Origin: Luteolibacter flavescens
Lineage (GTDB): Bacteria > Verrucomicrobiota > Verrucomicrobiia > Verrucomicrobiales > Akkermansiaceae
Assembly (NCBI RefSeq): GCF_025950085.1
Contig: NZ_JAPDDS010000008.1
Coordinates: 62,001-126,000 of the forward strand
Direction of reading: 5' to 3'
DNA: 64,000 bases
Below, piece after piece: positions 1 through 27,816 of the stretch. Within the stretch, counting starts at the first letter, position 1. The number at the start of each line of letters is the position of its first letter. The notes beneath the pieces are model-generated. The model was not told the origin of the DNA, made no database searches, and was given only the letters and a program-made list of their open reading frames with translations. Both the position numbers and the translations under genes were made by a program.

Positions 1-67
1 TCCGGTGGCCGTTGCCGAGCCTGCGCTCGCCTGAGCTTCCGGTTAAATTCGCTTCCCGCCTCTTTTC

Positions 68-1006
68 ATGAAGTCCCCTCGCCTCTCCCGCGCGGCCGGT
101 TGGTCACTGGTCGAGTTGCTCGTCGTGGTGACGGTCATGGGCTTCGTCGCCTCCGCCATGGCGGGTGCGATGCACTGGCTGTCGGGCAGGCATCAGGCGC
201 GGGAGGCCGCGCTGGAGTTCCAGTCCATGGTGCGGGAGGCAAGTGCGCTTGCCCGGCGGGAAATGGCACCGGTGCGCCTCGCCTTCCTCCTGCCCGGCAG
301 CGGGGATGCGCTGGAAAGAGCGGGTGTCGGAGACGGGGATGATGCCCCGGAGACGGGATGCCGCCTGCTTGTCTTCCGCGTGCCCGGCCGTCACCTACCG
401 GTGCAGTCGCTGCTCGCGCCCGAGGATGACATCGTGCCCGCGCTTCCCGTCGCCCGCACGCCGCGCTTTTCCTCCACCACGGGCGGATGGACCGCCGCGC
501 CGAATCGCCGCACCTGGACCCGCTGGCAGAAGGTGGATCTCGGCGGAGACTTCGTGCGCGCCTACACGGAGCAGGGCTTCGAGGCCGTCACGGGGAAATA
601 TCAATGCAGGCCGGAGACCACCTGGTCCGAGGTGGATGATGGCCGCGGCTCGCAGGCGGACGCGTATTCCATCTACCCGGAGGACTTTGCCCTCAGCCCC
701 TTCCGAGACCTGCGCGGCATCGTCACCGCGGTGCTGCCCGGGGACGAGAGCGTCACGCTGTCCGGCACTGGCCGCGTCAGCGCTGGGGATGTCTTCGGCG
801 GCCAAGAGGTGCCGCACTGGTCGGAGCGCAGCGGGGAAAGCCGGGCGGACCGCGTCGAGTTGCCCGCCATTGATTTCATGCCGGACGGCGGCCTGGCCTG
901 CCGTGAGGACGAGGAGGAATTGGAGTTCCACTTCGGCGACCAGGGGAAGGATTCCCACTGGATCGTGAAGATAAGAACCTCCGACGGGGAGGTATGGCAG
1001 GAATGA
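68..1006 (+). CDS. Verru_Chthon cassette protein D-like pseudopilin (GspH-like)
   Basis: A 312-residue type IV pilin-like protein. The N-terminus has a short basic leader ending in Gly11, then WSLVE, so a prepilin peptidase would leave a mature protein with the conserved Glu at +5, followed by a hydrophobic helix to about residue 34. The rest is soluble and has no motif I can name. Length, position and N-terminus match the Verru_Chthon cassette D family (TIGR02596-like), assigned from memory. It is the first gene of the operon, and its stop overlaps the next ATG as ATGA at 1003-1006. By position and E5 motif it corresponds to GspH of type II secretion; that role is inferred. No ribosome site or promoter is clear in the 67 bases before it. 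Confidence 0.8.
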   Translation: MKSPRLSRAAGWSLVELLVVVTVMGFVASAMAGAMHWLSGRHQAREAALEFQSMVREASALARREMAPVRLAFLLPGSGDALERAGVGDGDDAPETGCRLLVFRVPGRHLPVQSLLAPEDDIVPALPVARTPRFSSTTGGWTAAPNRRTWTRWQKVDLGGDFVRAYTEQGFEAVTGKYQCRPETTWSEVDDGRGSQADAYSIYPEDFALSPFRDLRGIVTAVLPGDESVTLSGTGRVSAGDVFGGQEVPHWSERSGESRADRVELPAIDFMPDGGLACREDEEELEFHFGDQGKDSHWIVKIRTSDGEVWQE

Positions 1007-1452
1007 AACATCACCCTCGCACTCGCCGCCGCCGTCTCCGCCATGCGCGCGGCTTCACGCTCATCGATACCTCCATGGCCATCGGGCTCATGGCCGTGAT
1101 GGTGCTGCCCATCCTGGGCCTGCTGACGGTGGGCACCGTGGAGGCGGGCCGGGCGCGCGGATTGCGAGAGACCGCCGGCCTGCGCGATGAGCTGCGGCTG
1201 CGGCTCCAGGATCGCTCGTGGCCGGAGGAGTCGCAGGGTGGCCGCGAGTGGAGGGCGAGCGTGGACTTCGACCGCAAGTGCCGCCTCATCGCGGGCGAGG
1301 ACATGATCCCCTGGGTGAAGGTCGAACTGGAGGGCATGGCTGCCCCGGGATTTCAGAGCGAGCGCTTCGAGGCAGTGAAAATCCGCATCACCGCCGCGCG
1401 CTCAGGCAAGCTCCTGGACGAGGCGGTCGTGCAGCGCGTGAAGGGATCGTGA
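1003..1452 (+). CDS. Verru_Chthon cassette protein B-like pseudopilin (GspI-like)
   Basis: A 149-residue pilin-like protein. I chose ATG 1003, which overlaps the previous stop, over the in-frame ATG at 994. A very basic leader (RTRRRRLRHARG) precedes FTLID at residues 18-22, so the usual +5 Glu is Asp. A hydrophobic helix runs to about residue 42 and a short, mostly polar domain follows. Small size and second place in the set match GspI and the cassette B family (TIGR02598-like). The end overlaps the next start as GTGA at 1449-1452. The Glu-to-Asp change at +5 is conservative but unusual, since that residue helps recruit a pilin into the fibre. Its role as a minor pseudopilin is inferred. Confidence 0.78.
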   Translation: MKHHPRTRRRRLRHARGFTLIDTSMAIGLMAVMVLPILGLLTVGTVEAGRARGLRETAGLRDELRLRLQDRSWPEESQGGREWRASVDFDRKCRLIAGEDMIPWVKVELEGMAAPGFQSERFEAVKIRITAARSGKLLDEAVVQRVKGS

Positions 1453-2060
1453 AAAGGCGGCATCATTCATTCTCCGGCTTCACGATCCTCGAGATGGTCG
1501 TGAATCTTTCGCTGCTTTCCGGGCTGCTGATCTGCATCGGCGGGCTCGTCACGCGCACCTCGGACACGGTCAAGGACTCCGCAGGAAAGCTCGCCGCCGC
1601 GGAGAAGTCTGAGTCCATCCGACGCCTGCTGGCTGCGGATCTGGCCGCGCTGCCTGCCACCTCGGAGGGCGCGCTGGAGTGCTCTTCCTCCGCGGATGCC
1701 TGGTCGCTCGACCTGCGCCTGCCATCCCGCGAGGGCGGGTGGAAGGACGTGCGCTACCGCTGGAAGCAGGAGAAGGGAACGCTGGTCCGCTCGCTGCGGG
1801 AGGGCCGCGAGACCACATCGAATGTCGTCGGCACCGGCTTCTCTTCCATCTCGTCACATTGGCTCAAGCGTGCCGCGCAGGATCGCGAGGATGCGCCGCA
1901 GTCATGGAGCCGCGCGGAGGCACCCGCGCTGTTGCACCTGGAGTTGGCCACCTCGCGGTTGCGTGAGGAGGGTCGGCGCGATCGTCTGGAGAAGTCCCGC
2001 GGCGAGACCTCCGATTTCCGTTTCCTCATGCCGGTGGGAGGCGGTCCGGCGGAGCGATGA
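1449..2060 (+). CDS. Verru_Chthon cassette protein C-like pseudopilin (GspJ-like)
   Basis: A 203-residue pilin-like protein with a GTG start that overlaps the previous stop. I chose it because the prepilin motif follows directly: Gly10, then FTILE with Glu at +5, and a hydrophobic helix to about residue 35. Residues near 40-70 form an amphipathic Glu/Lys/Arg-rich stretch typical of the pilin spine. The rest is a soluble domain of unknown fold. Place and size match GspJ and the cassette C family (TIGR02599-like). The end overlaps the next gene as ATGA at 2057-2060, so the four pilin-like genes are probably made in fixed proportion by coupled translation. Reading frames open further upstream only because of GC bias. 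Confidence 0.78.
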   Translation: MKRRHHSFSGFTILEMVVNLSLLSGLLICIGGLVTRTSDTVKDSAGKLAAAEKSESIRRLLAADLAALPATSEGALECSSSADAWSLDLRLPSREGGWKDVRYRWKQEKGTLVRSLREGRETTSNVVGTGFSSISSHWLKRAAQDREDAPQSWSRAEAPALLHLELATSRLREEGRRDRLEKSRGETSDFRFLMPVGGGPAER

Positions 2061-5000
2061 AGCGCGTTGTCCGCCGCGATGCGCCCGGCGCCGCCCTGCT
2101 ATGGGTCGTGCTGCTCGGTGGCTTCATGTCCGTCCTGTGCCTGTATTTTCTCACCACCGGTCACGAGGCGAGGTTGCGTGCGGACTTCGACCACGCGGAG
2201 GTGACGGCGGATGACCTGCTGGCATCCGCGAAGGGCGAGATCCTGGCGAAGCTCGACGAGGGATTCTCCGTCGGAGCCGGTGAAGGGAGCGTGGCTGCCA
2301 TGCCCGGCCTGCTGGAGGTGAAGCGCTACGACGAGCCGCTGAACCGGGGCGGCGAGACGGGCGAGGCGGCATTCGAGAACGACGCCTTCTTCGCCAAGCC
2401 CTTCGCCGCGGAATACGGCGGCAAGCCCGCGAACCCGCGCTGGATCCCGATGTTCTCGTGGAAGGACTTCGCGCCACGGCTGAAGCACCTCTCCGTGGAT
2501 GGCGGTGCGCCCGCGAAGGAGAACCCGGACTACAATCCCTACGCGGCCTTCAACATCAATACCGCCGACAATCCCTGGCAGCCCGGCACCACGTGGATCA
2601 CCGGCGTGCCCGAGGCCAGCGGTGCCACCGTGCGCACGTCGCTCGCGGGCCAAGGGAAGGAGATCGCCCCGGGCTCGACCTCCGCCGAGCGCCCCATCTG
2701 GGTGCAGTGGATCCCCGTGCTGAAGGACCCCTCGCAGCCGCCGTCGGCGAAGAACCCGATGATCGGGCGCTATGCCTACTGGGTGGATCTGGAGAATACC
2801 AAGCTGAGGGCCGATCTGCCGCTGCGCTCCATCCGCGGCGAGGCAGCCTACGGACGCCTCGTCGGTGAGTCCGGTGCGGTGGATGGTGGCCGCTCGCCCT
2901 ACGATCAGGACGGCCACAATTCCGCCCGCGGCCTGCTGGCGAAGCTCGAGCAGGTCGTCCCGGGGAAGGATATCGAGGGCCAGCCCGCCACGCGCGGCGG
3001 ACGCCCCGGTCCCGGCCTCTCCGCGCTCCATGCTCGAGATGCCCGCGAGGCATGGCTCGGCCCGGATGCCCCGGCAAGTACTACGGATCTGGTAGATTGG
3101 GCGTTCTTCGAGAGCCCGCGACGCTCCCGCGCGGAGGGGATGACCGCGGGGAAGGATCTCGCGGACCAGCTCGCGAATGCCGGATCGCGCGCGAGGCCTG
3201 CCCATCCGTGGTTCTCCGATCTGCGTGCTGCCGTGGGGAATGACGCCGAGCGCGTGAAGCTCGCCCGCCAGGTCGGCACCGCACTCACTTTCCAGGGCGA
3301 GGAAGAACAGCTCGATCCGCTCGGCCGCCCGCGCATCGACCTGCAGGAGTTCCAGAAGCAGGCCACGGGCAATCGCGGTACCACCGTCTCCCTCGCGGCC
3401 ATCACCGGCAGCGAGCTGTGGAGCCGCCTCGGCGATGGTGCCTACCAGCGGGCCTACCAGCCGGGCGCCAAGGCGAAGTCCTTCTTCGATTCGCTCGCGC
3501 CCTTCGCCCCCAGCGGCCAGTCCGCCGCCCTCCAGATGCTGGTGAATGTCGCGGAGGCCGCCCAGCCGGACAGCGTGCCGCCGCTCATCGACACCGCCGC
3601 TGGCATCGTCGGCGCGCGCTCCATGCCCTACGTCGCGGAGGTTAGCACCCGCGCCCGCAGCGCCTACTGGCTGCTGCCAAAGGAAGATCGCGAGGATCGC
3701 ACGAAGCTCCTCCAAACGACCGGCACCGGCTCCTACGGTTACACCTACAAGCAGAAGCGACTGCACCACTACGCCACCCACGCCGTGGTCGATCTCTGCA
3801 TCGGCCTGGTGAATCCGGACCCTTTCGAGACCGAGCCTTTCACCGGCGAGATCGAGTTCGACATCACCTGGGGCACGCTGCCCGCGGGCGCGACCGTCGA
3901 GAAGACCTTCAAGGCACCCCTGCACGGCCACTTCACCGCGAACTCGCTGCCCGGCAAGGACGCGAAGGAACTCCAGCCGCTGGGCCACACCGTGAACATC
4001 CGCCTCGGCGTCTTCCCGGTGGCGGCGCTGAATGACGACAAGTTCGCGAGCTGCCTGCGCATCCGCGGCTGGAAGATTCGCCGGGGTGGCCAGGTCTGGC
4101 ACCAGGTGCCCGTGAAGCACCCCGGGGCCGCAGGCTCCATCGACTGGTGGCGCATGTCCCAGGCCGGGACGAATGCCGGTAGCGCGGACGACGACTCGTC
4201 GCTCGCCGCCTATCGCGATGGCGGCGGCCGCTCGGTCGGCTGGTTTTGCATGAAGACGCTCGACGCCCTCATCCCCGAGAGCCTCGGCGTCAGCGGGTGG
4301 ACGGATGCAAATGCCACCGATACCGCGATGAAGTCCCGCGTTGCCACGTGGCTCGACCTCACGCCGAAGACCTCCGTGATGGAGCGCGTCGTCTGCCTGG
4401 ATCCCACCCTCGGCCATCGCACCGGGAATCCCATGCTGCCCGGTCTCTTCGGCCGCGGGCACTTCTACGGCGCGCAGGGTCACTTCTGGCGCAGGCAGCC
4501 GGTCATCAAGCCGCAGCCCGTGGTGTATGTCGGCCAGACCTTGCCAAAGATCGATCATCTCGCGGACACCCGCTGGGAGGTCAGTGCCATGGCGGGCGGC
4601 TCGGCCAGCGTCACCGTGCAGCGCGAGAGCGGGGGTCGCCTCTCCGCGGCGAATGCCTCGTGGCCGGTGGCGGACTCCACTGCCACGCGCCTTGCGGACT
4701 ACTCGGGCGAATGCCTCACCCACGAGTTGATCGTGCCGGGCACGGAGGGCGAGCCCGGCGGTGGCAAGCGCGCCGACTCTCTCACCGCCATCTACCGCAT
4801 CCCCTCCGTGGAGGGCGAGGCCGCACCGGGCCGACTCGGCCTGCCTGCGCTGCCCACCACCGTGAAGATCGACGCCGCCACCGCAGTGAAGAACACCGAC
4901 CTCGAGGTGGCTGCTTCCCCCGTGGACGAGGACAAGTTCACGAAACTGCCCGATGGCAAGAAGGGCGCGCGCGGCTTCCACTGCTCCGCCCCGGCGAAGC

Positions 5001-6229
5001 GCTACTTCACCTCGCCCGGCGAGATCGGCTTCTGCCACTCCGGCTTCCCGCTCACGCCCATCCAGATCGGCCCGGACGAAGGCCGCACGCCGAACCAGCT
5101 CAACAGCCCGCTGAATGGCCCGCCGATGCGGATGCTGCTGGACCTCCTGCGGATGCCGTCTTCCGGCCCGGCGTGGAACGTGAATACCTCCGTCGCCCAT
5201 GACGAATACCTCGCACTGCGCGAAGGAGGCGAAACCACCCAGGAGCTGAAGGACTCTTCGGACGTGGGCAAGGACCCGCTGCATGCCGTGTGGCTGCCCG
5301 CGGCGCAGGGTTTCCTCCCGCGAGAAACCGGCTCTGAATCCTATCGCGGCAAGGAGGCGAAGAATCTCGCCGAGAAGTCTCCCGGCAGCCTGCTCGACCG
5401 GAATCTCAGCCCCTTCCCGCAACTCCGCCGCCCGTGGGACATGTGGCTCGGCGTGGTGGGCGGGGACTTCTCGCGCAGTGGCGAAAGCCTGCGTTGGGGC
5501 GTGGGAAATGCGGCTTTCGATTTCTTCGGTCCCGGTTTCTTCACGTGGCGTCCAGGAGATGGCGCAGGTGGTGACCCGTGGATCGACTTCGGCTCGGATC
5601 TCCCCGGCCAGGGCCGCCTGCTCGCCTACGGCGTGGATGGACGGAAGGACGACAAGAACGACGGCAAGGGAACGCTGAAAGGCCGCCACGCTGCGGACCA
5701 GAATCTCGATCTCATCAATGGCGGTGCCGGCTTTCACATGCCCGCCCACTTCGCCACGCGCTTCAGCCTCCTGCCCGTGCGCCACTTCCGCAGCGATCTC
5801 GCGATCGACTATCACCAGGAGAGTCACGAGAGCGGGTGGCTGCGTTTCAAGACGGCGCTCAATCCCGGCCTGGGTGCCGCCTCGTCGGCGGGCGACATGG
5901 CGGGGGATAAGGAACTCGGCGAGTCCATGGACGGCGCGTCCTTCCCCGGAGGCCACCATTCGTCCGGCATTTTTTACCAGGCACCCATGGCCCTGCTGGT
6001 GAATCAGGCGGGCGTCTCGGCGAATGCCTTCTCCGCCTACGTCGTCGTCGAGTCCGTCCGCGACCGCGGCAAGAAGCGCGAGGGCGTGGCGAATTCCGGT
6101 CGCGGCCATTGCGATCCCGATGACGAGGTGGTCGCCCGCCGCTGGGCCCGTATCCTGATTTTGAAAGAACGCGACGCCTCCGGCGCGGCGCGATTCCGCA
6201 CTGTCCTGACCGACACCGCCGGCCACTGA
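2057..6229 (+). CDS. Verru_Chthon cassette protein A, giant GspK-like pseudopilin
   Basis: A 1390-residue protein anchored by a pilin-like N-terminus. After a basic leader ending in Gly11 come AALLW and a hydrophobic helix to about residue 32, then GHEARLRADFDHAEVTAD. GspK subunits look the same: no Glu at +5 and an EARL-type stretch after the helix. The remaining roughly 1350 residues are predicted to be outside the membrane, with many Gly/Pro/Trp-rich loops and no catalytic motif I recognise. GspK is usually 300-350 residues, so this is greatly enlarged. Family assignment (TIGR02600-like) rests on size, N-terminus and operon. Function is unknown; I infer a tip or cap subunit of a pseudopilus or secretion device. 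Confidence 0.8.
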   Translation: MKRVVRRDAPGAALLWVVLLGGFMSVLCLYFLTTGHEARLRADFDHAEVTADDLLASAKGEILAKLDEGFSVGAGEGSVAAMPGLLEVKRYDEPLNRGGETGEAAFENDAFFAKPFAAEYGGKPANPRWIPMFSWKDFAPRLKHLSVDGGAPAKENPDYNPYAAFNINTADNPWQPGTTWITGVPEASGATVRTSLAGQGKEIAPGSTSAERPIWVQWIPVLKDPSQPPSAKNPMIGRYAYWVDLENTKLRADLPLRSIRGEAAYGRLVGESGAVDGGRSPYDQDGHNSARGLLAKLEQVVPGKDIEGQPATRGGRPGPGLSALHARDAREAWLGPDAPASTTDLVDWAFFESPRRSRAEGMTAGKDLADQLANAGSRARPAHPWFSDLRAAVGNDAERVKLARQVGTALTFQGEEEQLDPLGRPRIDLQEFQKQATGNRGTTVSLAAITGSELWSRLGDGAYQRAYQPGAKAKSFFDSLAPFAPSGQSAALQMLVNVAEAAQPDSVPPLIDTAAGIVGARSMPYVAEVSTRARSAYWLLPKEDREDRTKLLQTTGTGSYGYTYKQKRLHHYATHAVVDLCIGLVNPDPFETEPFTGEIEFDITWGTLPAGATVEKTFKAPLHGHFTANSLPGKDAKELQPLGHTVNIRLGVFPVAALNDDKFASCLRIRGWKIRRGGQVWHQVPVKHPGAAGSIDWWRMSQAGTNAGSADDDSSLAAYRDGGGRSVGWFCMKTLDALIPESLGVSGWTDANATDTAMKSRVATWLDLTPKTSVMERVVCLDPTLGHRTGNPMLPGLFGRGHFYGAQGHFWRRQPVIKPQPVVYVGQTLPKIDHLADTRWEVSAMAGGSASVTVQRESGGRLSAANASWPVADSTATRLADYSGECLTHELIVPGTEGEPGGGKRADSLTAIYRIPSVEGEAAPGRLGLPALPTTVKIDAATAVKNTDLEVAASPVDEDKFTKLPDGKKGARGFHCSAPAKRYFTSPGEIGFCHSGFPLTPIQIGPDEGRTPNQLNSPLNGPPMRMLLDLLRMPSSGPAWNVNTSVAHDEYLALREGGETTQELKDSSDVGKDPLHAVWLPAAQGFLPRETGSESYRGKEAKNLAEKSPGSLLDRNLSPFPQLRRPWDMWLGVVGGDFSRSGESLRWGVGNAAFDFFGPGFFTWRPGDGAGGDPWIDFGSDLPGQGRLLAYGVDGRKDDKNDGKGTLKGRHAADQNLDLINGGAGFHMPAHFATRFSLLPVRHFRSDLAIDYHQESHESGWLRFKTALNPGLGAASSAGDMAGDKELGESMDGASFPGGHHSSGIFYQAPMALLVNQAGVSANAFSAYVVVESVRDRGKKREGVANSGRGHCDPDDEVVARRWARILILKERDASGAARFRTVLTDTAGH

Positions 6230-6230
6230 A

Positions 6231-9200
6231 ATGAAACGACTGATCCTAGCCCTCAGCACCCTCGCGGCCTCCCACGCCGCCACGGTGCCCTTCGAATCCG
6301 AGCCGGACCTCGCGGCCTACACGGTCACGAACCTCAATGGTGCGCTCACCCGCGAGAACGGCATCGGTGCCGGCAATCCCGTCACCGGCGGCCTTCGCTA
6401 CCAAGGCAACTCCGGCGGCAACGACCGCGGCGCGGTGGCCCGCAAGCTGGTCCCCGTGGCCCAGGCGGACGGTGTGTGGACCTCGTCCATCCTGCTCAGC
6501 CCGCGCGAGATCGACAGTTCCACTTCGGACAAGGCCGAGGTGCGCATGGGCTTCGCCGCCACCGACACGACGAATGCCTCCAAGCCGTGGGAATACTTCC
6601 ACAAGAACAACGACTCGATCAGCCTGACGCTGAAGGCCGAGCACAAGCCCTCCGACAGCAAGACGAGGCAGATCGAGTGCGAGATCACGAACCGCGTCAC
6701 CTCCGAGGCGAACTCGATGAAGCTGGCGGTGAACAACAGCGCCCACTTCGATGACTGGCTCCGCCTGACCTTGAAGATGGTCCGCTCCGGCGGAAATGAT
6801 TTTTCCGTGAGCTACACGCTCGAGAGCCTCGGCGCGGACGGCACCGCCGCTCCTGTCGCCATCCTGAGCTCCACGCCGGTCACTCTGGCGAATGCGCCGC
6901 TCGCCACCGCCGCCAGCGTTTACGAGGGCTTCGCGGTGAAGACGGAGAAGTCGAAGACGACCTCGGTGTTCTTCGACGATCACGAGACGGTGTTCTCCGC
7001 CGTGGCGCCACAGTCACCCGTCGCCGCGGCTGCCACCGCCGTCGCCGCACAGGGCTTCACCGCAGGATGGCAGGCACCCGCCGCCGGCGTCTATCCCGCC
7101 TCCTACGTGCTGGAAGTGACCACCGCCGCGAACAACTTCGCGCCGGGCTCCTTCCTCGCCGCGGACGGCACCCCCGGCCAGGCAGCAGGCATCCCGGTCA
7201 GCGGTCTTTCCCAAGCCATCACCGGCCTCTCGCCACAGACCGCCTACGTCTATCGCGTCCGCTCCGTGAACGTGGTGGGCCAGAGCGATCCCTCCGCCGT
7301 CACGAACGTCCAGACGCTCTCGCTCACCCAGAATTCCCCTCCGACGCTGGATGCGATCGGAAACGTGGGACCCTTCTCCCTTTCGCAAAGCACGGTGGTC
7401 ATCCCGCTCACCGGCATTTCCGCAGGTGGCGAGACCGACCAGACCGTCACCGTCTCGGCCACCTCCAGCAATCCCGCGATCGCGACGGCCAGCGTGAGCC
7501 ACACCTCGCCCGCGGACACCGGGTCCCTCACGCTCACAATGGGAGACACCGAGGGCACGGCCACCATCACCGTCACCGCGAATGACGGCCAGGCCGCCGA
7601 CCACACCACCACCCGCACCTTCACCGTCACGCTGCGGAATCCTCCCGCGGTGCTCGGCTTTGAAAGCGCGGCGGATCTCGACGACCTCGCCGTCACCACG
7701 AATGCAAACCTCGTCCACACGTGGCAGGCAGGTGCCGGTGCGGGAGATCCCGCCTCCGGCGGCATCGTCGTTTCCAGCAGTTCCACCTCCGGCGACCATG
7801 GCTTCGTGGGCTGGCGAAAGCAGGGCCACCCGCTCGCCGGGTCCTCGCTGCTGCGCACGTCCATCCTCTTCAATCCCTCGCAGGTGGATGACGCCACCTC
7901 GGATGAGGCGAAGCTCGAGCTCCGCGTGGGCTTCATCCCCACGCTCACGCTGAATGCCAGCAAGCCCCACGAGTTTCTCCACAAGTCGAACCAGGCCATC
8001 AGCGTGGTCATCAAGGCCGAGCACAAGCCCAGTGACGCCTCCAAATCCCGCAAGATCGAAGCCGAGATCGGCAATGCCGACGGCAGCGGCGACGAGACGA
8101 AGGCGGGCAAGCTCACGCTGCTCAACAGCGCCTCGATGAACAACTGGCTGCGCGTGTCCCTCACACTCGTCCCCGCAGGCGGCTCCACCTTCCTCGCCTC
8201 CTACCAACTGGAAGACCTCGGCGAACACGGCACGTCCACGCCGGTCGTGATCATGGAGTCCGGGCCGTTCTCCTTCACGAATGCCGCGATGGGCTCCGCC
8301 GCCGACCTCTACGCCGCTTACGCGGGCAAGCTGGACAAGCAGCTCACCTACCTGCGGCTGGATGACCACCGCTCCGTCGCGCAGACCGACCCGCCGTCCG
8401 CGCCGCAGGCCGCCGCGGCCACGCAGGTGACCGCCTCCAGCTTCCAGGCAAACTGGCAACCTGCCGGTGAAGTCTATCCCGCCGGATGGATTGTCGAGGT
8501 CGTGCCGGACGGTGCTTCCTTCACTGCAGGCAATTTCATCTCGGCCACCGGATCCACGGGGCAGGCCGCAGGCATCATTCTCACGGAAAGCACCGCACGC
8601 ACGCTGCGCATCTCCGGTCTCGCCGCGGGCACCGGCTACCGCTACCGCGTCATTGGCACGAATCCGAATGGGTCCAGCGATGCCTCCGGCGAGATCGCCG
8701 TGACCACCCTGGCCGCCGGCATGAATGCTAGGCCGACGCTCGCCGCGATCGCGAATCCCGCACCCATCGCCATCAATGGCGCCCAGCAGACCGTCGCGCT
8801 CTCGGGCATCACCAGCGGTGGTGAGGAAGGCCAGACGCTCAGCGTCACCGCCACCTCGTCAAATCCCGGGCTCATCCCGAATCCCGTCGCAAGCTACACG
8901 TCTCCGGCCACCACCGGCAGCCTCGCCTTCACCCCGGTTCCGGGCGTCGTGGGCAACGCCGTCATCACCGTGACCGTCAGCGACGGCGCTTCCAACAACG
9001 CGACCTACCAGCGCACCTTCACCGTCATCGTCGTCGATCCGGATCCGGTCATCGACTTCGATGATCCCGCGGACCTGAATGCCATCGCGATCACCACGTC
9101 GAATGCCACGCTGACCCACGCGCCTGCCGGTGGCACGTCTTCCAGCGGCGGCCTCGCCTTCGTCGGCAGCACCAGCAATGACCGCGTGGCCTTCGCCGTT

Positions 9201-10523
9201 CGGCCCACGGCCTTCGATGCGGCCTCGGCGTCGTATCTGATGACCTCCATCGACTTCAATGCCGCCGAGGTGCTCAATGTGACCAGCGGCAAGGACAAGG
9301 GCGAGATCCGCCTCGGCTTCCTCGGCAATGCCACGCCGAATGCGAACAACCCGAAGGACACGATGAACAAGACCCACCCCTCGCTCGGGGTGAAGTTCAG
9401 CATCGAGGAAGACACCACCAGCTCCGACAAGCGCCGCAAGGTGGAGGCGGAGGTCTTCTCCTGGAACGGTTCCACGGAAAACAAGGGCGAGAAGCTCTCC
9501 CTGAACAACGTCGCGCAGGCCGGAAACTGGTTCCGCATCACCTTGCTCGCCGTGCGTTCCGGTGCCAGCCAGTTTGCCGTGAGCTACACCGTGGACGACA
9601 TGGGCGTGGATGGTGCGGGCTTCGTCTCCCGCCTCATCGAGAGCACGCCGATGACCATCGCCGCCGCATCGCTTGCGGCGGATTCGTCGGTCTTCTCTGC
9701 ATTCACCGTCATGGATGAAAAGGGCAGCACCAGCACCATCAAGCTGGACCGCTTCGCCAGCGTGGTGAGCACCACCGCGCCGGAAGCCCCCGCCACCCTC
9801 ACCGCCACCGACATTACCGAGGAAGGCTTCACAGTGAACTGGAGTGCTCCGCTCACCGGAGCCTTCGCCGAAGGCTACATCGTTGAGATCGTCGATGCGA
9901 ATGCTGCTTTCCTCCCAGGGAACTTCTACGGAGAGGACGGCAAAAACGATCATGATGAGGGCATCCTGGTGACAAATCCCTTTGCCGAGGATCTCCCGGT
10001 CTACGTGCTGGATAACATGACGAGCTACCGCGTGCGCGTCCGTTCCTACGGCGAGGCACCCGCCTACGAGGAGAGCATGGCGCTGAACTCCACCCGCGTG
10101 ACCACCACTTTCGGCCCCGGTCTCGAATACGCGGCGTGGCGGGAGCAGGCCTTCGGCGCGAATGCCTCGGATCCCCTCATCGCGGGACCTGATGCCGACC
10201 CGGACCACGATGGCATGAGCAACCTGCTGGAGTATGCGCTCGGCTTCGACCCGAATGCCTCCGACGCCCACCTGATGCCGAAGGCAAACATCAACGGCCC
10301 ATATCTCAGCATCACCTACAAGCGCCGCCACAATGTCACCGGAGTGATCTACCAGGCCGCAGCCACCGGCGATCTCGCCGACTGGCATCCCGAGCAGACC
10401 GTGGAGAAATCCGTGTCCGCCCCGGACGCGGACGGCATGGAAACCGTCGTCGTGGAAGACCTCTATCCCAAGGGCAACTTCCCAAAACGCTTCCTCCGCG
10501 TCTCCGTGAATCTCGCCGATTGA
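6231..10523 (+). CDS. large exported modular protein with three LamG-like/FN3 repeats
   Basis: A 1430-residue secreted protein starting one base after the pseudopilin A stop, with a short signal peptide (cleavage near residue 16). It is built from three repeats of about 462 residues. Each has a LamG-like beta-sandwich (starting near 20, 474 and 940; the second and third open with GFESAADL and DFDDPADL) and an FN3 domain (starting near 260, 721 and 1183). The first two also have a cadherin/Ig-like domain with the signature PTL.AI. The last 130 residues hold a calcium-type DADPDHDGMSNLLEYALG motif near 1321 and a Trp-containing beta module. It has no enzyme motif. An adhesin, surface-layer or carbohydrate-binding role is likely. 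Operon position suggests it is a partner or cargo of the pseudopilus (inference). Confidence 0.75.
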   Translation: MKRLILALSTLAASHAATVPFESEPDLAAYTVTNLNGALTRENGIGAGNPVTGGLRYQGNSGGNDRGAVARKLVPVAQADGVWTSSILLSPREIDSSTSDKAEVRMGFAATDTTNASKPWEYFHKNNDSISLTLKAEHKPSDSKTRQIECEITNRVTSEANSMKLAVNNSAHFDDWLRLTLKMVRSGGNDFSVSYTLESLGADGTAAPVAILSSTPVTLANAPLATAASVYEGFAVKTEKSKTTSVFFDDHETVFSAVAPQSPVAAAATAVAAQGFTAGWQAPAAGVYPASYVLEVTTAANNFAPGSFLAADGTPGQAAGIPVSGLSQAITGLSPQTAYVYRVRSVNVVGQSDPSAVTNVQTLSLTQNSPPTLDAIGNVGPFSLSQSTVVIPLTGISAGGETDQTVTVSATSSNPAIATASVSHTSPADTGSLTLTMGDTEGTATITVTANDGQAADHTTTRTFTVTLRNPPAVLGFESAADLDDLAVTTNANLVHTWQAGAGAGDPASGGIVVSSSSTSGDHGFVGWRKQGHPLAGSSLLRTSILFNPSQVDDATSDEAKLELRVGFIPTLTLNASKPHEFLHKSNQAISVVIKAEHKPSDASKSRKIEAEIGNADGSGDETKAGKLTLLNSASMNNWLRVSLTLVPAGGSTFLASYQLEDLGEHGTSTPVVIMESGPFSFTNAAMGSAADLYAAYAGKLDKQLTYLRLDDHRSVAQTDPPSAPQAAAATQVTASSFQANWQPAGEVYPAGWIVEVVPDGASFTAGNFISATGSTGQAAGIILTESTARTLRISGLAAGTGYRYRVIGTNPNGSSDASGEIAVTTLAAGMNARPTLAAIANPAPIAINGAQQTVALSGITSGGEEGQTLSVTATSSNPGLIPNPVASYTSPATTGSLAFTPVPGVVGNAVITVTVSDGASNNATYQRTFTVIVVDPDPVIDFDDPADLNAIAITTSNATLTHAPAGGTSSSGGLAFVGSTSNDRVAFAVRPTAFDAASASYLMTSIDFNAAEVLNVTSGKDKGEIRLGFLGNATPNANNPKDTMNKTHPSLGVKFSIEEDTTSSDKRRKVEAEVFSWNGSTENKGEKLSLNNVAQAGNWFRITLLAVRSGASQFAVSYTVDDMGVDGAGFVSRLIESTPMTIAAASLAADSSVFSAFTVMDEKGSTSTIKLDRFASVVSTTAPEAPATLTATDITEEGFTVNWSAPLTGAFAEGYIVEIVDANAAFLPGNFYGEDGKNDHDEGILVTNPFAEDLPVYVLDNMTSYRVRVRSYGEAPAYEESMALNSTRVTTTFGPGLEYAAWREQAFGANASDPLIAGPDADPDHDGMSNLLEYALGFDPNASDAHLMPKANINGPYLSITYKRRHNVTGVIYQAAATGDLADWHPEQTVEKSVSAPDADGMETVVVEDLYPKGNFPKRFLRVSVNLAD

Positions 10524-23097: not shown

Positions 23098-26000
23098 TCA
23101 GCCTTGCACCACGACGACCCGGACGAAGAGCTCCGGGAGGACTTCGCTGGGAGTTGCGGTGACGTGGCAGACACCGCCACTGATGCGGGACCTGAAACTG
23201 ACGGTGGGGCCGCCGGTTGGCCCTGCGCCGTCGGGATACCAGTCAATGAGGTCCTGCGACCACTCGTAGGAGCCTAACAGATCGGCAGGCGGGTATTCAT
23301 TCATCGGATGACTGAAGGTGAAGGTACCTCCACTTGCGGCAATGCCGGACAGGCTCGGGCCGGGCTGGTTCGGGTGGGTGCCGAACCACGCTTCGAGGCC
23401 GTTCGTCAGGTTGTCGGAGTCCGGGTCCAGCAGGAAGCCTTGGGCCGATGGAGGCAGGCCGAAGGCGGGATCTGACATGTAGGACGCGAAGTCACTCCCG
23501 CGGATCGTCCCCTGCTTCGTGAGGCGGACGGCGTCGTAATTCGTCTGCACTCCGTAGCCGCGCAGCCGGATCTCGAGTGGCTGGCCGAGCTGCGGATGAC
23601 TTTCGCCCGTGGTGAATGCGGCGAGGACATCCTTCCACCGTCCGGCAGCAGGTGCGCTGCCGGTGCCGCCGCGATTCGCGCTGTAGTCAGAAGCCAGCAG
23701 GCTGCCACCGGCCCAGAGCTCAATGCCGTAGCCCGGGTAGGTGGGATACGGTCCCGCAGCCAGATCCGCGCGCCACCCGGTCGCCACGGCGAGGGAGTAG
23801 GTCGTGCCGGCCTGTAGCGTCTCGGCGAGCGTCTGGCGGATGCTGTCACCACCGTTTGCATAGGCGTAGATGTCACCATCCGGCATGGGGTCGCTGTATT
23901 GGCCCGCACCAATCCAGCCGTAGCCGGCACCGGTGCCGACCTTCGTCCACGAGGCGAGCGCGGATGCCGTGCTGATGCCCGGGCCCGGGATGCCGCCGGG
24001 CACCCAGCCGCCGAGCGCGCGTGCGCCTTCGAAGCCCGGTTCGGTGATGTGGATCGACGTCCTCTCATGCGTGGAGAAGCTCCACGTCGCCTTGTCCGCA
24101 ATGCCGCCGAATGCCTCGCCAGAGGCCCCGGTGATCGCACCGCCATCAACCAGCACGTGATAGGTCTGCTCGTCCGCCAGATCAGCCGTGGGATCGATCA
24201 CCAGGGTGCTGCCGGTGAACCGGAGCCTCGCCGAAGACGTGACGTCGAAGGCCTCCACCTCCACACCATCGCCGGAGCGCACCAGGACGATCCTGCCGCT
24301 TCCGGCGACGATCTTCCGGTCAAATCTCATCACCAGGTTTCCGCCCCGGGGCACTCCCGTCGCATCGCGTTGCGGAGACAGGCTGTTCAAGCGCATCGCG
24401 GCATCGTCCACCACCGTGCGCACCGAGGTCCTCAGCGTCACCTCCTGACCCATGGAGGCGGTGCCCCCAGCGGTGCCGGTCAGCAACACCTGCACTTCAT
24501 TCGCCCCGGGCTGGAGCGCATCGGTGACATCGAGCGAATACGGCGGCATCCACAGCGTGTCGTAGGTGTGGCCATTCAGCGTCACCTTCGCCATCACCGA
24601 CACGGCTCCGAGGTCCAGGGTCACCCGCTTGCCGGTGCCAAATCCGGCGGGCAGCGTGAAGGTATTCTGCTTCACCACGGACGAGGCCTTGCCATTCTGC
24701 AAGGTGCTCTGCCAAGCGCCGGGAATCGTGAAGCTCTGCGAGCCCTGGCCGATATTCACCTGGCGATCCGTGCCATCGCTCATGGCGAGATTGTAGATGC
24801 CGGCGCTGCCGCTCTCCGCGACAAGCCGGTCCTCAGCGTCGTAGGACAGCTTCAGCGGTGAGACCGGGCCGCTGACCGCGGTCACGGAGGGCTGCTCCGC
24901 TGCCTTGCGGAAGACGAGGAAGAACGCGTCCGCACGATCCCTCACGTCGAAGGTCACGCGCGTGCCGCCATCCACCGCCTCGTATCTCGCGAGAGGAGTC
25001 ACCTCGCCCGTCACCGGATTGAATAGCTCCGGAACTTTCCCCGTCACCCGGAAAGTGGCCGTGAAGGGACCCGTGGTGCCGAAGTTGCAGACGAAGTACT
25101 GCATCCCCTCGTCCAGCTTGCGAGCCTTCCAGCGGAGCGTGGCCGAGGCATCCGAGAGCATCGGCTTCACCCCGGCGGCGGCGAGGGTATTCGCGGAAAG
25201 CGGCACGCCGGTGAAGATCTTGCCTCCCTGCTGGATCAGCTCGTCGAGACGCTGACGGATCTGCGGGCGCATGTGACCGAGCCCGGCAGGCAGAGCGAGG
25301 AACTTCCATCGTGCGGAGATGCGGGCCGGATCGCTCTCGTCATAGACCACCCAGTCGCCATCCACGATGTGGAGCTTCCGCAGGATCGCGTCCGAGCCCA
25401 TGTAGTCGAAGTCATAGCCGGCGGGCACCGGATTCGCAGGGCCCGTCATCTGCGGCGCGTGGTCGCCGATGTAGACGGCGACGTCCGCGGCGGGCTCGCC
25501 TTCCTGCAGCATGTAGTGGCAGCGCTGCAGGTACTTCACCCAGTCGCGGCCCTGGACGAACCACGGGGTATTCCGGTGAAAGGCAGTGCCAAACCACGGG
25601 TTGTTCCCCGGCTCGCCATCCGCAGGCTGCTGGACATAGACGTGCAGGACGAAGTGATTGATGCCATGGGTGAACATCTCCTCGCCGCGCGCCTTGATCG
25701 TGTAGGGATGGTGCTCGGTGCTGAAGCTGCTGGTGAAGGCCTCCGCATACACTCGCTGCTTCCCATAGATGTGCGCTGCCGAGCTGGCGGCGCGGCACTC
25801 CAGTGGTCCCAGGTCATTGCCTGAAGTCCAGAACTCACCGGCGATCGCGTCCGCGTGTCCGCCGTAAACGAGGAACTCACCGGGATAGCCCCAGTGCCCG
25901 TAATTTTCGCACCACAAGGTGAGGCCGTTCTCGCGGGCGACCTCGCTGAGACCGCCGACGAAATTTTCCGCGATCATGTCGGCCACCGTGCGCCGCATGT

Positions 26001-27816
26001 CCCACAGGAATTGATCGGAAGCACCCGCGCTATCGAGCACACGGCCCGTGAGGATGGGGAGCATGCGGATGGGATCGTAGCCATTGCGCTCCAGGAACTC
26101 GGCGTCGAAGCCATCGGTCCAGTTCTGCGAGCCGCGCTCGTAGCTGTCCATGGTGATGCTCTTGAAGACGGACTTTTGGTCCGGCGTCATGCGGTCGAGC
26201 AACTGCCCCATCATCGAGTCGAAGTGATGGCGCGCGTGCGTGCGGTTCATCTTGTCCACCTCCAGGCCGGTGCCTTCCGGCGGAGCGGGGCCGTTCTTCG
26301 TGCCGGTGGTGACCATGCCGAAGTACATGAGCGTCCAGTCGCCGGGCGGCACGGTGCAGGTCAGCACGCCATCGCTGCCGAGATGCTCCGTCAGATCGAG
26401 GATGCCCTCGCTCTTGATCACGGAGTCCGGATCGCCGGGCTCCACGGAGTCCGGGAAGATGTAGGATTCCCACGAGGGATTCGGCGTCGGGTGCATGCGG
26501 CCCATCTGCTTCTCCACGACCTGCGCCACGGTGGGCGAGGAGGTCAGCTCGACCGGGATGCCGGGATCGGGATCGAGCTGGAAGCGGTCCGCGGTAACAT
26601 CCGGGAAGCTGAAGGTCTCGGCACCATTTGGCAGGAAGTCCGTTTGCGCGCTGCCGCCATTCGCATTGATGCTGGCGACCACCTGGCGCTGGCCGTTCTT
26701 CACCGCGTAGAGCGTCGTATTGCCCGTGCCATGCACGATCAATCCGCGCGCGGTGAATGGCTCGGTGCGGGCGAACTCCAGCACGCCGCCGGCCGTGGTG
26801 GGAAGACGCCACGGGGCGATGCCCATGGTACCCAGCACATTCGCAGGCAGCCATTCGCCAGCCGTAGTCTTCGCGCTCTCCCAGGAGGAGCCGCTGTCAT
26901 GGCGGGCGACCGTGGCACCGCTGGCGTTTTTCAACACCACGCTCGCGATGAGTCCGGCGGGACTCGCAGCCGCATTGTTCACCGCGACGGTGACCGTATT
27001 GGTCCCGGCACGCAGGTGAGTCAGGATCGAATACTTCTCGATGGAGGTCCAGACACCGTCCTGACCCACCGGGGTGCCATTGACGGAGACGGTATAGCTA
27101 TCGTCCGCGGTGAGATCCACCGTGGCCGAGCCGAGCGAGCCCGGGGTGGCCTCGAAGGACACCCGGAAATAGCGGATAGCCGCAGGGACCGAGGTGAGCG
27201 CGGCGCTGCCGTCCTCCGGATGCCAGATCCATCGGGCCGACGCCAGCGGCGCGCGCTGCGGATTCTCACCGGTGAGCGTCACTGACTCCACCCGCGGCAC
27301 CGCGAGGACGGCGATGTCTTGCCCCGCTGGCACATCCACAGGCCGCACGAGCTGGCTGAAGCTGCCACCCTGGATCTCCTTCTCGCTCCACGTCACCCGT
27401 CGCATCGATTGCTCCGGTGTGATCCACGGTCCGCCTGCCTGGCTCCATCCAGGGCTATTGAAAGCACCGAGCTCGACGGAAAGCCGCTTCGCTTCGCTGA
27501 AGGCATGCAATGTCAGCTCGTACCACTCCTCGGTGAACATGTCCACCGACCCCGATGCGCCGCCCTCGCCATCGATGTAGGCGATCATTGCGCGGCGGAT
27601 CCCGACCGAAGCCATCGCCTCGAGATCCTTGGTGATGCCTTCCTTGGTATAGCTGCCATTCAGCCAGTACCAGAAGGTCCACGGCTTCGTCTCCTCCGGC
27701 GGATTCTTGAAGCCCTCCACCATTCCGTCCGCCGCACCCGCGGTCGGCATCGGCACGGTGCAGAGCATGCACAGGGCTAGGGCCAGAATGGGGCTTTTGA
27801 AGAAGTCATTCATCAT
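23098..27816 (-). CDS. secreted GH106-type alpha-L-rhamnosidase, multidomain
   Basis: A 1572-residue exported glycoside hydrolase. The signal peptide ends near residue 28. The mature protein opens with GFKNPPEETKPWTFWYWLNG, a hallmark of the GH106 rhamnosidase family, and a catalytic domain extends to about residue 970. It is interrupted near 190-290 by an inserted beta-sandwich (ARWIWHPEDG onward). A further beta-sandwich ends in SLDVTDALQPGANEVQV (about 1090-1130). A Big_5-like Ig domain (about 1144-1250), a carbohydrate-binding-like domain and a C-terminal module with DPDSDNLTNGLEAW near 1461 follow. It should release terminal alpha-L-rhamnose from plant or microbial polysaccharides outside the cell. 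It is divergent from an AraC gene that probably controls it. Confidence 0.85.
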   Translation of the reverse strand: MMNDFFKSPILALALCMLCTVPMPTAGAADGMVEGFKNPPEETKPWTFWYWLNGSYTKEGITKDLEAMASVGIRRAMIAYIDGEGGASGSVDMFTEEWYELTLHAFSEAKRLSVELGAFNSPGWSQAGGPWITPEQSMRRVTWSEKEIQGGSFSQLVRPVDVPAGQDIAVLAVPRVESVTLTGENPQRAPLASARWIWHPEDGSAALTSVPAAIRYFRVSFEATPGSLGSATVDLTADDSYTVSVNGTPVGQDGVWTSIEKYSILTHLRAGTNTVTVAVNNAAASPAGLIASVVLKNASGATVARHDSGSSWESAKTTAGEWLPANVLGTMGIAPWRLPTTAGGVLEFARTEPFTARGLIVHGTGNTTLYAVKNGQRQVVASINANGGSAQTDFLPNGAETFSFPDVTADRFQLDPDPGIPVELTSSPTVAQVVEKQMGRMHPTPNPSWESYIFPDSVEPGDPDSVIKSEGILDLTEHLGSDGVLTCTVPPGDWTLMYFGMVTTGTKNGPAPPEGTGLEVDKMNRTHARHHFDSMMGQLLDRMTPDQKSVFKSITMDSYERGSQNWTDGFDAEFLERNGYDPIRMLPILTGRVLDSAGASDQFLWDMRRTVADMIAENFVGGLSEVARENGLTLWCENYGHWGYPGEFLVYGGHADAIAGEFWTSGNDLGPLECRAASSAAHIYGKQRVYAEAFTSSFSTEHHPYTIKARGEEMFTHGINHFVLHVYVQQPADGEPGNNPWFGTAFHRNTPWFVQGRDWVKYLQRCHYMLQEGEPAADVAVYIGDHAPQMTGPANPVPAGYDFDYMGSDAILRKLHIVDGDWVVYDESDPARISARWKFLALPAGLGHMRPQIRQRLDELIQQGGKIFTGVPLSANTLAAAGVKPMLSDASATLRWKARKLDEGMQYFVCNFGTTGPFTATFRVTGKVPELFNPVTGEVTPLARYEAVDGGTRVTFDVRDRADAFFLVFRKAAEQPSVTAVSGPVSPLKLSYDAEDRLVAESGSAGIYNLAMSDGTDRQVNIGQGSQSFTIPGAWQSTLQNGKASSVVKQNTFTLPAGFGTGKRVTLDLGAVSVMAKVTLNGHTYDTLWMPPYSLDVTDALQPGANEVQVLLTGTAGGTASMGQEVTLRTSVRTVVDDAAMRLNSLSPQRDATGVPRGGNLVMRFDRKIVAGSGRIVLVRSGDGVEVEAFDVTSSARLRFTGSTLVIDPTADLADEQTYHVLVDGGAITGASGEAFGGIADKATWSFSTHERTSIHITEPGFEGARALGGWVPGGIPGPGISTASALASWTKVGTGAGYGWIGAGQYSDPMPDGDIYAYANGGDSIRQTLAETLQAGTTYSLAVATGWRADLAAGPYPTYPGYGIELWAGGSLLASDYSANRGGTGSAPAAGRWKDVLAAFTTGESHPQLGQPLEIRLRGYGVQTNYDAVRLTKQGTIRGSDFASYMSDPAFGLPPSAQGFLLDPDSDNLTNGLEAWFGTHPNQPGPSLSGIAASGGTFTFSHPMNEYPPADLLGSYEWSQDLIDWYPDGAGPTGGPTVSFRSRISGGVCHVTATPSEVLPELFVRVVVVQG

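Follow-up and report, generated by a model that had tools for sequence, protein, structure and literature searches.

In type II secretion systems (T2SS) and type IVa pili, an H-I-J-K complex of minor subunits starts the filament and sits at its tip, which is capped by the subunit lacking the glutamate at position 5 (Glu5) (PMC10191384; this and the other papers given by accession are cited from the part of each that was available). One such H-I-J-K set can stand in for another in piliation, and that of the T2SS interacts with secreted effectors (PMC10191384). In Myxococcus xanthus, three clusters of minor-pilin genes plus PilY1 appear to share one pilus machine, and PilY1 has been suggested as an analogue of T2SS substrates (PMC7541494). 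Proteins with MYXO-CTERM and GlyGly-CTERM tails cross the outer membrane by the T2SS (PMC11980579). The subject here is a five-gene set of Luteolibacter flavescens, D-B-C-A-P0005, which resembles both the minor pseudopilin genes of the T2SS and the Verru_Chthon cassettes. It occupies, as five consecutive plus-strand genes in that order, the start of the window (the whole stretch of 64,000 nucleotides analysed, contig 8:62001-126000 of a 5.9-Mb genome). To our knowledge, substrate choice by the T2SS and the outer-membrane passage of PEP-CTERM proteins are both open questions. Sets of this kind are quite possibly interchangeable tips, each tied to one giant exoprotein and run by a shared type II core.

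Like the window set, Verru_Chthon cassettes comprise four pilin-like genes including a giant A, have the order D-B-C-A at two of 32 loci, and share homology in A and B past the N-terminal helix; they differ in that the window proteins fall under the curated cut-offs and in the partner, which is of the P0005 type in the window and a PATR protein at classic loci. With T2SS GspH-I-J-K, the window set shares gene order, prepilin sites, the rule for position +5, an I-type predicted fold of B and a K-like N-terminus of A, whereas A has 1390 amino acids (aa) against 311 aa in the GspK of the same genome, has no detectable T2SSK domain, and shares its contig with D-B-C and an adjacent giant exoprotein, the canonical set being on a different one. 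PilX, of the FimU-PilV-PilW-PilX-PilY1 clusters, is a small protein. Those clusters in M. xanthus are likewise several H-I-J-K-type sets per genome with large neighbours and one machine thought to be shared (PMC7541494); the neighbour there is PilY1, whereas here a giant K-type protein is found and the neighbours are P0005, PATR or PEP-CTERM proteins. MYXO-CTERM and GlyGly-CTERM proteins offer a parallel as tail-tagged surface proteins that need the T2SS at the outer membrane, but the available text describes no dedicated tip set, and the tag here would be PEP-CTERM or the P0005 C-terminal domain (PMC11980579). In the modular tip pilins PilB and PilC of S. sanguinis, a large domain is grafted on a tip-type pilin, but the available part of that source describes no linked giant exoprotein (PMC10191384).

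The probable five-gene operon and its place among the Verru_Chthon cassettes

D (68..1006) encodes a putative GspH-like minor pseudopilin of 312 aa with the prepilin site G|WSLVE, B (1003..1452) a GspI-like one of 149 aa (G|FTLID), C (1449..2060, GTG start) a GspJ-like one of 203 aa (G|FTILE), and A (P0004; 2057..6229) a giant K-like candidate cap protein of 1390 aa (G|AALLW). The fifth gene, P0005 (6231..10523), encodes a secreted-type protein of 1430 aa with fn3 domains, proposed as cargo or tip-displayed partner. The D/B, B/C and C/A junctions each overlap by 4 nucleotides and a single nucleotide separates the A stop from the P0005 start; because of this spacing, the five genes likely form a single operon. 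The feature extends beyond 6229, where a preliminary description of this DNA had ended it, as P0005 belongs with D-B-C-A.

The residue at +5 of the prepilin site is E in D, D in B and E in C, and A has W and no acid there. This is the signal pattern of GspH-I-J-K, in which H, I and J carry the acid and K does not. The preliminary description had reported four overlapping genes with pilin-like N-termini, of which the last lacked the acid at +5, and the open reading frames, prepilin sites and overlaps bear this out. In the following, classic refers to the Verru_Chthon cassette loci and window-type to relatives of the D-B-C-A set described here. At classic loci the acid is absent from every A (0/32) and present as E in B (30/30), D (31/31) and C (30/31, the sole exception being a prepilin site misplaced by the script). 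Window-type A proteins lack it as well (0/7), and in three window-type sets it is found in B (3/3), D (3/3) and C (2/3, the other having Q). In A, HEARLR follows the helix (residues 36-41), and a conserved stretch, NPMIGRYAYWVDLENTKLRADLP (2753..2821, plus strand), stands at the same place as NPIVGRIAFWTDDESxKVNINTA of classic A; the likeness of this stretch to the GspK strand after the helix was seen by eye and is not significant (E 0.17).

The Verru_Chthon cassette is defined in NCBIfam by the models TIGR02600 (A), TIGR02598 (B), TIGR02599 (C) and TIGR02596 (D), and all four window proteins fall under the curated cut-offs of these models. D matches TIGR02596 at E 0.34 (10.9 of 70 bits), B matches TIGR02598 at E 0.0022 (18.2 of 51.4 bits) and C matches TIGR02599 at E 0.023 (13.9 of 256.5 bits), and no Verru_Chthon model reaches A at E<=1. 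The best NCBIfam models for D (GspH, TIGR01708, E 0.00067) and for C (ComGF, E 0.0073) are also under their cut-offs. Profiles were built from a classic sample of 32 A loci of seven genomes, chosen among the listed matches; gene calls outside annotated records come from our own codon-score script. The resulting hidden Markov models match window D (1e-7), B (1e-8) and C (3e-3) in the order D-B-C, and the A model matches A of two window-type relatives (2e-6 and 2e-4), P0004 itself being unmatched at E 1e-3.

Profile-profile alignment with hhalign after removal of the helix relates classic A to window-type A over 1063 columns (E 1.3e-6, probability 90.7), one row of this comparison, from locus L188, being a 361-residue N-terminal piece ahead of an in-frame stop. 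The C-terminal score of the same families is 32.3, compared with 17.2 for the best of 20 shuffles, one of the seven window-type rows being a wrong piece. Window B aligns with classic B over 130 columns (E 2.7e-22) and, with the helix removed, over 60 columns (E 8.6e-9). The corresponding helix-removed values for C (E 0.37) and D (E 0.001 over 32 columns) are not convincing. As A and B still align without the helix, the window cassette is, by profile comparison, a divergent Verru_Chthon member, securely so for A and B only. The Verru_Chthon identity given in the preliminary description therefore stands for A and B as divergent homologues, whereas the curated cut-offs are reached by none of the four.

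The order D-B-C-A is also found among the 32 classic loci (2), where A-B-C-D prevails (19) and B-C-A-D (4), B-C-D-A (4), A-C-D (2) and A alone (1) make up the rest. L093, L164 and L160 comprise two cassettes without a detected B gene and one A gene alone. No paper was found for Verru_Chthon or its four TIGR accessions, in a search that left most subscription papers and preprints outside its reach, and the available part of Haft 2006 mentions no such cassette. Likewise, no paper was found that joins Verrucomicrobi*, autotransporter and 'beta strand repeat'.

Giant proteins beside the cassettes

P0005 has fn3 domains, together with weaker fn3-like matches, a weak cadherin-like match and a weak match to the CshA fibril repeat (E 0.041). 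The protein holds three copies of a unit of about 245 residues, at 6291..7019 (residues 21-263), 7659..8405 (residues 477-725) and 9057..9791 (residues 943-1187), and ends in a C-terminal domain (10086..10520, about residues 1286-1430), all on the plus strand. This last domain is widespread in the bacterial order concerned, occurs on many other large secreted-type proteins and is a candidate sorting or anchoring domain; a 1572-aa gene elsewhere in the window (23098-27816, minus strand) has a weak match to it (E 2.4e-7). P0005 is a giant surface-type protein and probably the one exported or displayed by the tip.

P0005 tracks full-length A. Among 77 related genomes, long P0005 matches occur in three, the same three that have a full-length A, and in each they lie beside the cassette. 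P0005 directly follows A in the window's own genome and in G066, where the contig ends within the gene and another contig has further pieces at its start; in G053 the homologue is found upstream of D, separated from it by one small called gene. Matches of any kind are present in 43 of the 77 relatives, nearly all through the C-terminal domain, and short pieces of the repeat region occur in G048 and G066. Beyond these genomes, a P0005 homologue adjoins A in Verrucomicrobium sp. BvORR106, and in a metagenome-assembled genome (MAG) of the Chthoniobacteraceae (L190) the start of D is overlapped by the end of a gene for a 320-aa protein, which has a single P0005 unit (E 9e-23) and, above cut-off, a PEP-CTERM tail. 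A search for the P0005 unit in a set of 715 proteins matched only this 320-aa protein and P0005 homologues.

A similar association is seen at the classic cassettes. Directly adjacent genes within 500 bp and on the same strand were scored against a self-chosen limit of 700 aa, and the controls were complete genes, on either strand, from the third position outward; neither group includes second genes or adjacent genes more than 500 bp away. At the 32 cassettes, 25 of 37 neighbours reach at least 700 aa, compared with 7 of 118 controls (Fisher test, 6.7e-14, a value that overstates independence because the loci are a selection from the listed matches and many are paralogues). Such a same-strand neighbour is present at 22 of the 32 loci, and among adjacent genes on the opposite strand 3 of 17 are that large. 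An arginine-rich tail is found in 16 of the 37 adjacent genes and in none of the 118 controls. Among the 27 neighbours of at least 550 aa, 18 have a PATR match and 10 a PEP-CTERM match, three match GH5 cellulase and two match Ig domains.

In the complete genome G271, the distance to one of the 24 listed PATR clusters is at most 5 kb for seven of the eight scored cassettes (5.2% expected) and at most 3 kb for five of the eight (4.0% expected); the clusters derive from 76 listed PATR repeats, with the best 150 of 503 candidates scored. At locus L085 (5961-12347, minus strand), a PATR/PEP-CTERM protein, with PEP-CTERM above cut-off, and A share one open frame of 2129 codons with no stop between them, and a purine-rich stretch precedes the A start. 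This shared frame is a fusion, a case of re-initiation or a sequence error.

Likeness to GspH-I-J-K and the secretion core of the genome

The likeness to H-I-J-K in gene order, which the preliminary description had pointed out, holds up alongside the +5 rule, and part of it extends to sequence profiles and to predicted structure. The window-type D profile scores best against GspH (E 2.5e-10), and the window-type C profile aligns with GspJ over 171 columns (E 1.3e-8; 5.3e-6 with a three-sequence profile). B is predicted to fold as one long helix and four strands (pLDDT 76), which would be the fold of an I subunit: the five best structural entries for this model are GspI chains of three species (Z 7.4, 7.2, 6.8, 6.4 and 6.4; 71-86 residues aligned), and the next, unrelated entry has Z 5.4. 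These chains were recognised as GspI by chain letter (3ci0_I, 5vtm_V) or by chain length and residue numbers (5bw0_F, 2ret_G, 6utu_D).

Because the GspG, GspH and GspI profiles (3, 3 and 4 sequences) are thinner than those of GspJ (26) and GspK (33), profiles were also compared at equal depth. Classic D then scores highest with H (72.5), G being close (68.9). The first 75 residues of classic A score 45.0 with GspK, compared with 14.8-27.9 for G, H, I and J, and with a K profile of only three sequences the score is still 39.2, compared with at most 27.7; for window-type A at equal depth the margin is small (29.9 for GspK, at most 26.9 for the others). Sequence searches of solved structures gave no match to classic A at E<=10, and only a geopilin for B (E 0.8); the matches of C and D were mostly to the N-terminal helix of pilins, apart from single unrelated entries. 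The order, the +5 rule, the B fold and the N-terminal profiles support D-B-C-A as a minor-pseudopilin-like H-I-J-K set. A would be a K-like cap by its position, the +5 rule and its N-terminus; the term is a reading and not a family assignment because past the N-terminus A has no significant GspK similarity. Of the giant GspK proposed in the preliminary description, the size of 1390 aa and an N-terminus nearest GspK remain, and a T2SSK model and similarity past the N-terminus do not.

The genome of L. flavescens encodes four GspE-like ATPases whose matches span almost the full model; they lie at three loci, each with GspF and one with GspG; one locus with GspE, GspF and a secretin is on contig 3. 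There are four secretin matches and one prepilin peptidase match, and a prepilin peptidase is matched in all eight genomes tested. The parts of a type II core (ATPase, platform, major pseudopilin, secretin and prepilin peptidase) are all present, so that the absence of a prepilin peptidase and GspE/F, which the preliminary description had named as a finding that would tell against it, does not apply. A canonical GspG-H-I-J-K set lies on contig 10, and its GspK of 311 aa matches the GspK profile at E 1.4e-99 and NF037980 at E 8e-21 (74.9 of 130 bits). A PF03934 match in the same genome was not used as GspK, because the called product of its 813-codon frame looks Tex-like by eye.

In the cassette-rich family, the GspK domain PF21687 is found in 58 of 59 genomes with 1-4 matches each, and none of the matches listed has an open frame longer than 558 codons. 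As these genomes keep an ordinary GspK domain, the cassettes are additional sets and not a replacement of GspK; as the canonical GspG-H-I-J-K with a 311-aa K is found in the same genome, the window set, too, is an extra one. This overturns the earlier view of the cassette as the tip of a divergent machine.

Mechanism, rival explanations and distribution

D-B-C-A-P0005 may encode both an accessory tip set, belonging to the type 4 filament superfamily, and the client of that set. D, B, C and A would serve as minor pseudopilins of types H, I, J and K, respectively; they would be cleaved by the prepilin peptidase encoded elsewhere in the genome and would assemble into a complex that starts a pseudopilus, with A, which lacks the +5 acid, as the outermost cap. 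The roughly 1000 extra residues of A might be a platform that binds the client, which would be the neighbour: P0005 here, and at many classic cassettes a giant protein of the PATR/PEP-CTERM kind. A shared core of GspE/F, GspG and secretin encoded elsewhere in the genome would build the pseudopilus, and each cassette would be a tip, interchangeable with the others, for passing one giant exoprotein across the outer membrane. The linkage is consistent with this: P0005 starts 1 nucleotide after A, co-occurs with it in 3 of 77 genomes, and has a counterpart in the neighbour excess at classic loci. An interchangeable tip for one giant client seems the simplest reading because it combines three precedents, namely the interchange of tip sets, the sharing of one machine in M. 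xanthus and tail-tagged cargo of the T2SS.

Several observations weigh against this explanation. On the client side, P0005 lacks a PEP-CTERM match; at two Opitutales loci the gene downstream is another one (682 and 709 aa), with no clear Pfam family; 10 of the 32 classic loci have no same-strand neighbour of at least 700 aa within 500 bp; single proteins among the 27 large neighbours look unrelated (an RND permease, an MFS-type protein, a histidine kinase and an S41/tricorn-type protease); and many of the PATR clusters listed in G271 have none of the eight scored cassettes. On the side of the pseudopilins, C and D are tied to the classic families via the N-terminal region only. For B, a Foldseek search gave no match at E<=1e-3 and unrelated top rows, the Z of 7.4 is middling, and sequence profiles fail to single out GspI: at equal depth, classic B scores higher with J (51.0) than with I (44.0), and window-type B scores highest with G (48.9). 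Classic C is nearly tied at equal depth between J (51.7) and I (49.0), and its E-value favours I. No GspK or T2SSK model matches A at E<=1, and A has no significant similarity to GspK past the N-terminus in helix-removed alignments (best E 0.14 for classic A, 0.23 for window-type A and 0.059 for the solo giants described below) or in C-terminal scores, which stay within those of column shuffles. An AlphaFold2 model of P0004 residues 191-1390 from five sequences was left unused and no structural inference on A is drawn, because its mean pLDDT is 33.5.

The core that the cassettes would use is ambiguous, since 58 of 59 genomes have 1-4 ordinary GspK matches alongside them. A P. aeruginosa strain mutated in the GspK gene xcpX remained able to secrete in the assays reported in the available text, so that K need not select cargo (PMC6211770), and in Akkermansia intracellular fractions were richer in PEP-CTERM proteins than outer-membrane fractions (PMC4960237, as far as the text was available).

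The main rival to export is display of the client at a pilus tip. The four minor pilins would prime a type IV pilus and the giant neighbour would stay at its tip as an adhesin in the manner of PilY1, which is rather unlikely. The FimU/PilV/PilW/PilX set with PilY1 has a matching layout of H-I-J-K-type pilins and a large neighbour, and in M. xanthus three such clusters go with a single major pilin, and PilX, like GspK, lacks Glu5 (PMC7541494). PilX_N is the only Pfam model reached by more than one classic A at E<=1 (5/29, best E 0.043), the fn3 domains and the CshA-like match of P0005 would suit an adhesin, and the GspE/GspF/secretin locus on contig 3 would be available. However, P0005 has no PilC/PilY1 domain at E<=1, PEP-CTERM in 10 of 27 classic partners suits anchoring to the surface or matrix better than a place on a pilus tip, and the N-terminus of A is nearest GspK, in a comparison among T2SS pseudopilins.

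The effector might instead be A itself, its insert of about 1000 residues serving as an adhesin or enzyme on a tip pilin, with the neighbour merely co-regulated. Tip pilins with grafted domains are known (PMC10191384), and fifteen solo giants of the same genome share the A-like N-terminus with no B or C genes beside them. We consider this improbable, as it leaves unexplained the tracking of full-length A by P0005 over 77 genomes, the neighbour excess (25/37 compared with 7/118) and the frame shared by partner and A. It is also conceivable, though very improbable, that the cassettes and the giant repeat proteins each belong to a common family, mobile or expanding, and have ended up next to each other, the pilin-like genes being structural surface proteins unrelated to secretion. 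Both are multi-copy and the window-type cassette is sporadic, with A in none of 17 same-genus genomes, but the linkage holds across families and even where the partner switches side (upstream at L082, downstream at L083 and L188).

If interchangeable tips for giant clients are indeed what these cassettes are, one tip set per client in many copies per genome would make both substrate choice and PEP-CTERM passage accessible by deletion and tip swapping, and a protein family known by name only would gain a checkable function. A broader form, in which Verrucomicrobiota keep a rack of swappable tips whose giant K reads the adjacent cargo, one shared core exports many huge surface proteins by changing tips, and the missing outer-membrane step of PEP-CTERM proteins is provided as well, is doubtful.

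Classic cassettes are concentrated in one family. TIGR02600 is matched above cut-off in at least 4 of 194 genomes across the phylum (best three candidates scored per genome) and in at least 54 of 59 genomes of that family, with up to at least nine matches per genome, where mostly the best eight candidates were scored and some matches are pieces of one gene. Window-type A is rare: it is full length in 3 of 77 relatives, namely the own genome and two of another family, gives short matches in two further ones, and matches none of the 17 same-genus genomes. In a genome-contig collection, a search with P0004 as single sequence found none, and a three-sequence search found five loci, in Verrucomicrobium sp. 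BvORR106, a Verrucomicrobiaceae MAG (probably the same record as G066), a Chthoniobacteraceae MAG and two Opitutales MAGs. All five read D-B-C-A; in the Opitutales loci D and A were found by similarity, and B and C by position and prepilin site. No relatives of P0004 were found in phages.

In the Opitutales MAGs (L191, L192), A has about 2000 and 1919 residues. The BvORR106 locus (L188 10001-14512) has one in-frame stop in A and a D called in two pieces, and B, C and the P0005 homologue are present. A small gene lies just upstream of D in the window's genome (L043 9342-10034, its end being window 1-34), and genes that resemble it by eye also precede D at L188 and at L189, the latter locus having a TonB-dependent receptor still farther upstream. 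A wider conserved cluster with the small gene and the receptor is possible.

The genome of L. flavescens also encodes the fifteen solo giants (L028-L042, on contigs 3, 4, 5, 9, 10, 11, 12, 17, 19 and 23), open frames of 1100-1276 aa with an A-like N-terminus. They were rejected as cassette members because none of the 15 fetched loci has a B or C match and only one (L030) a D-type match. At four of these loci (L028, L029, L038, L042), five called genes carry the P0005 C-terminal domain at E<1e-40. Twelve of the fifteen are followed by genes of 201-311 aa; every one of these genes resembles one or more of the other eleven, and most start, by eye, like a signal peptide. The solo giants appear to be a second giant-pilin family with a small partner of its own.

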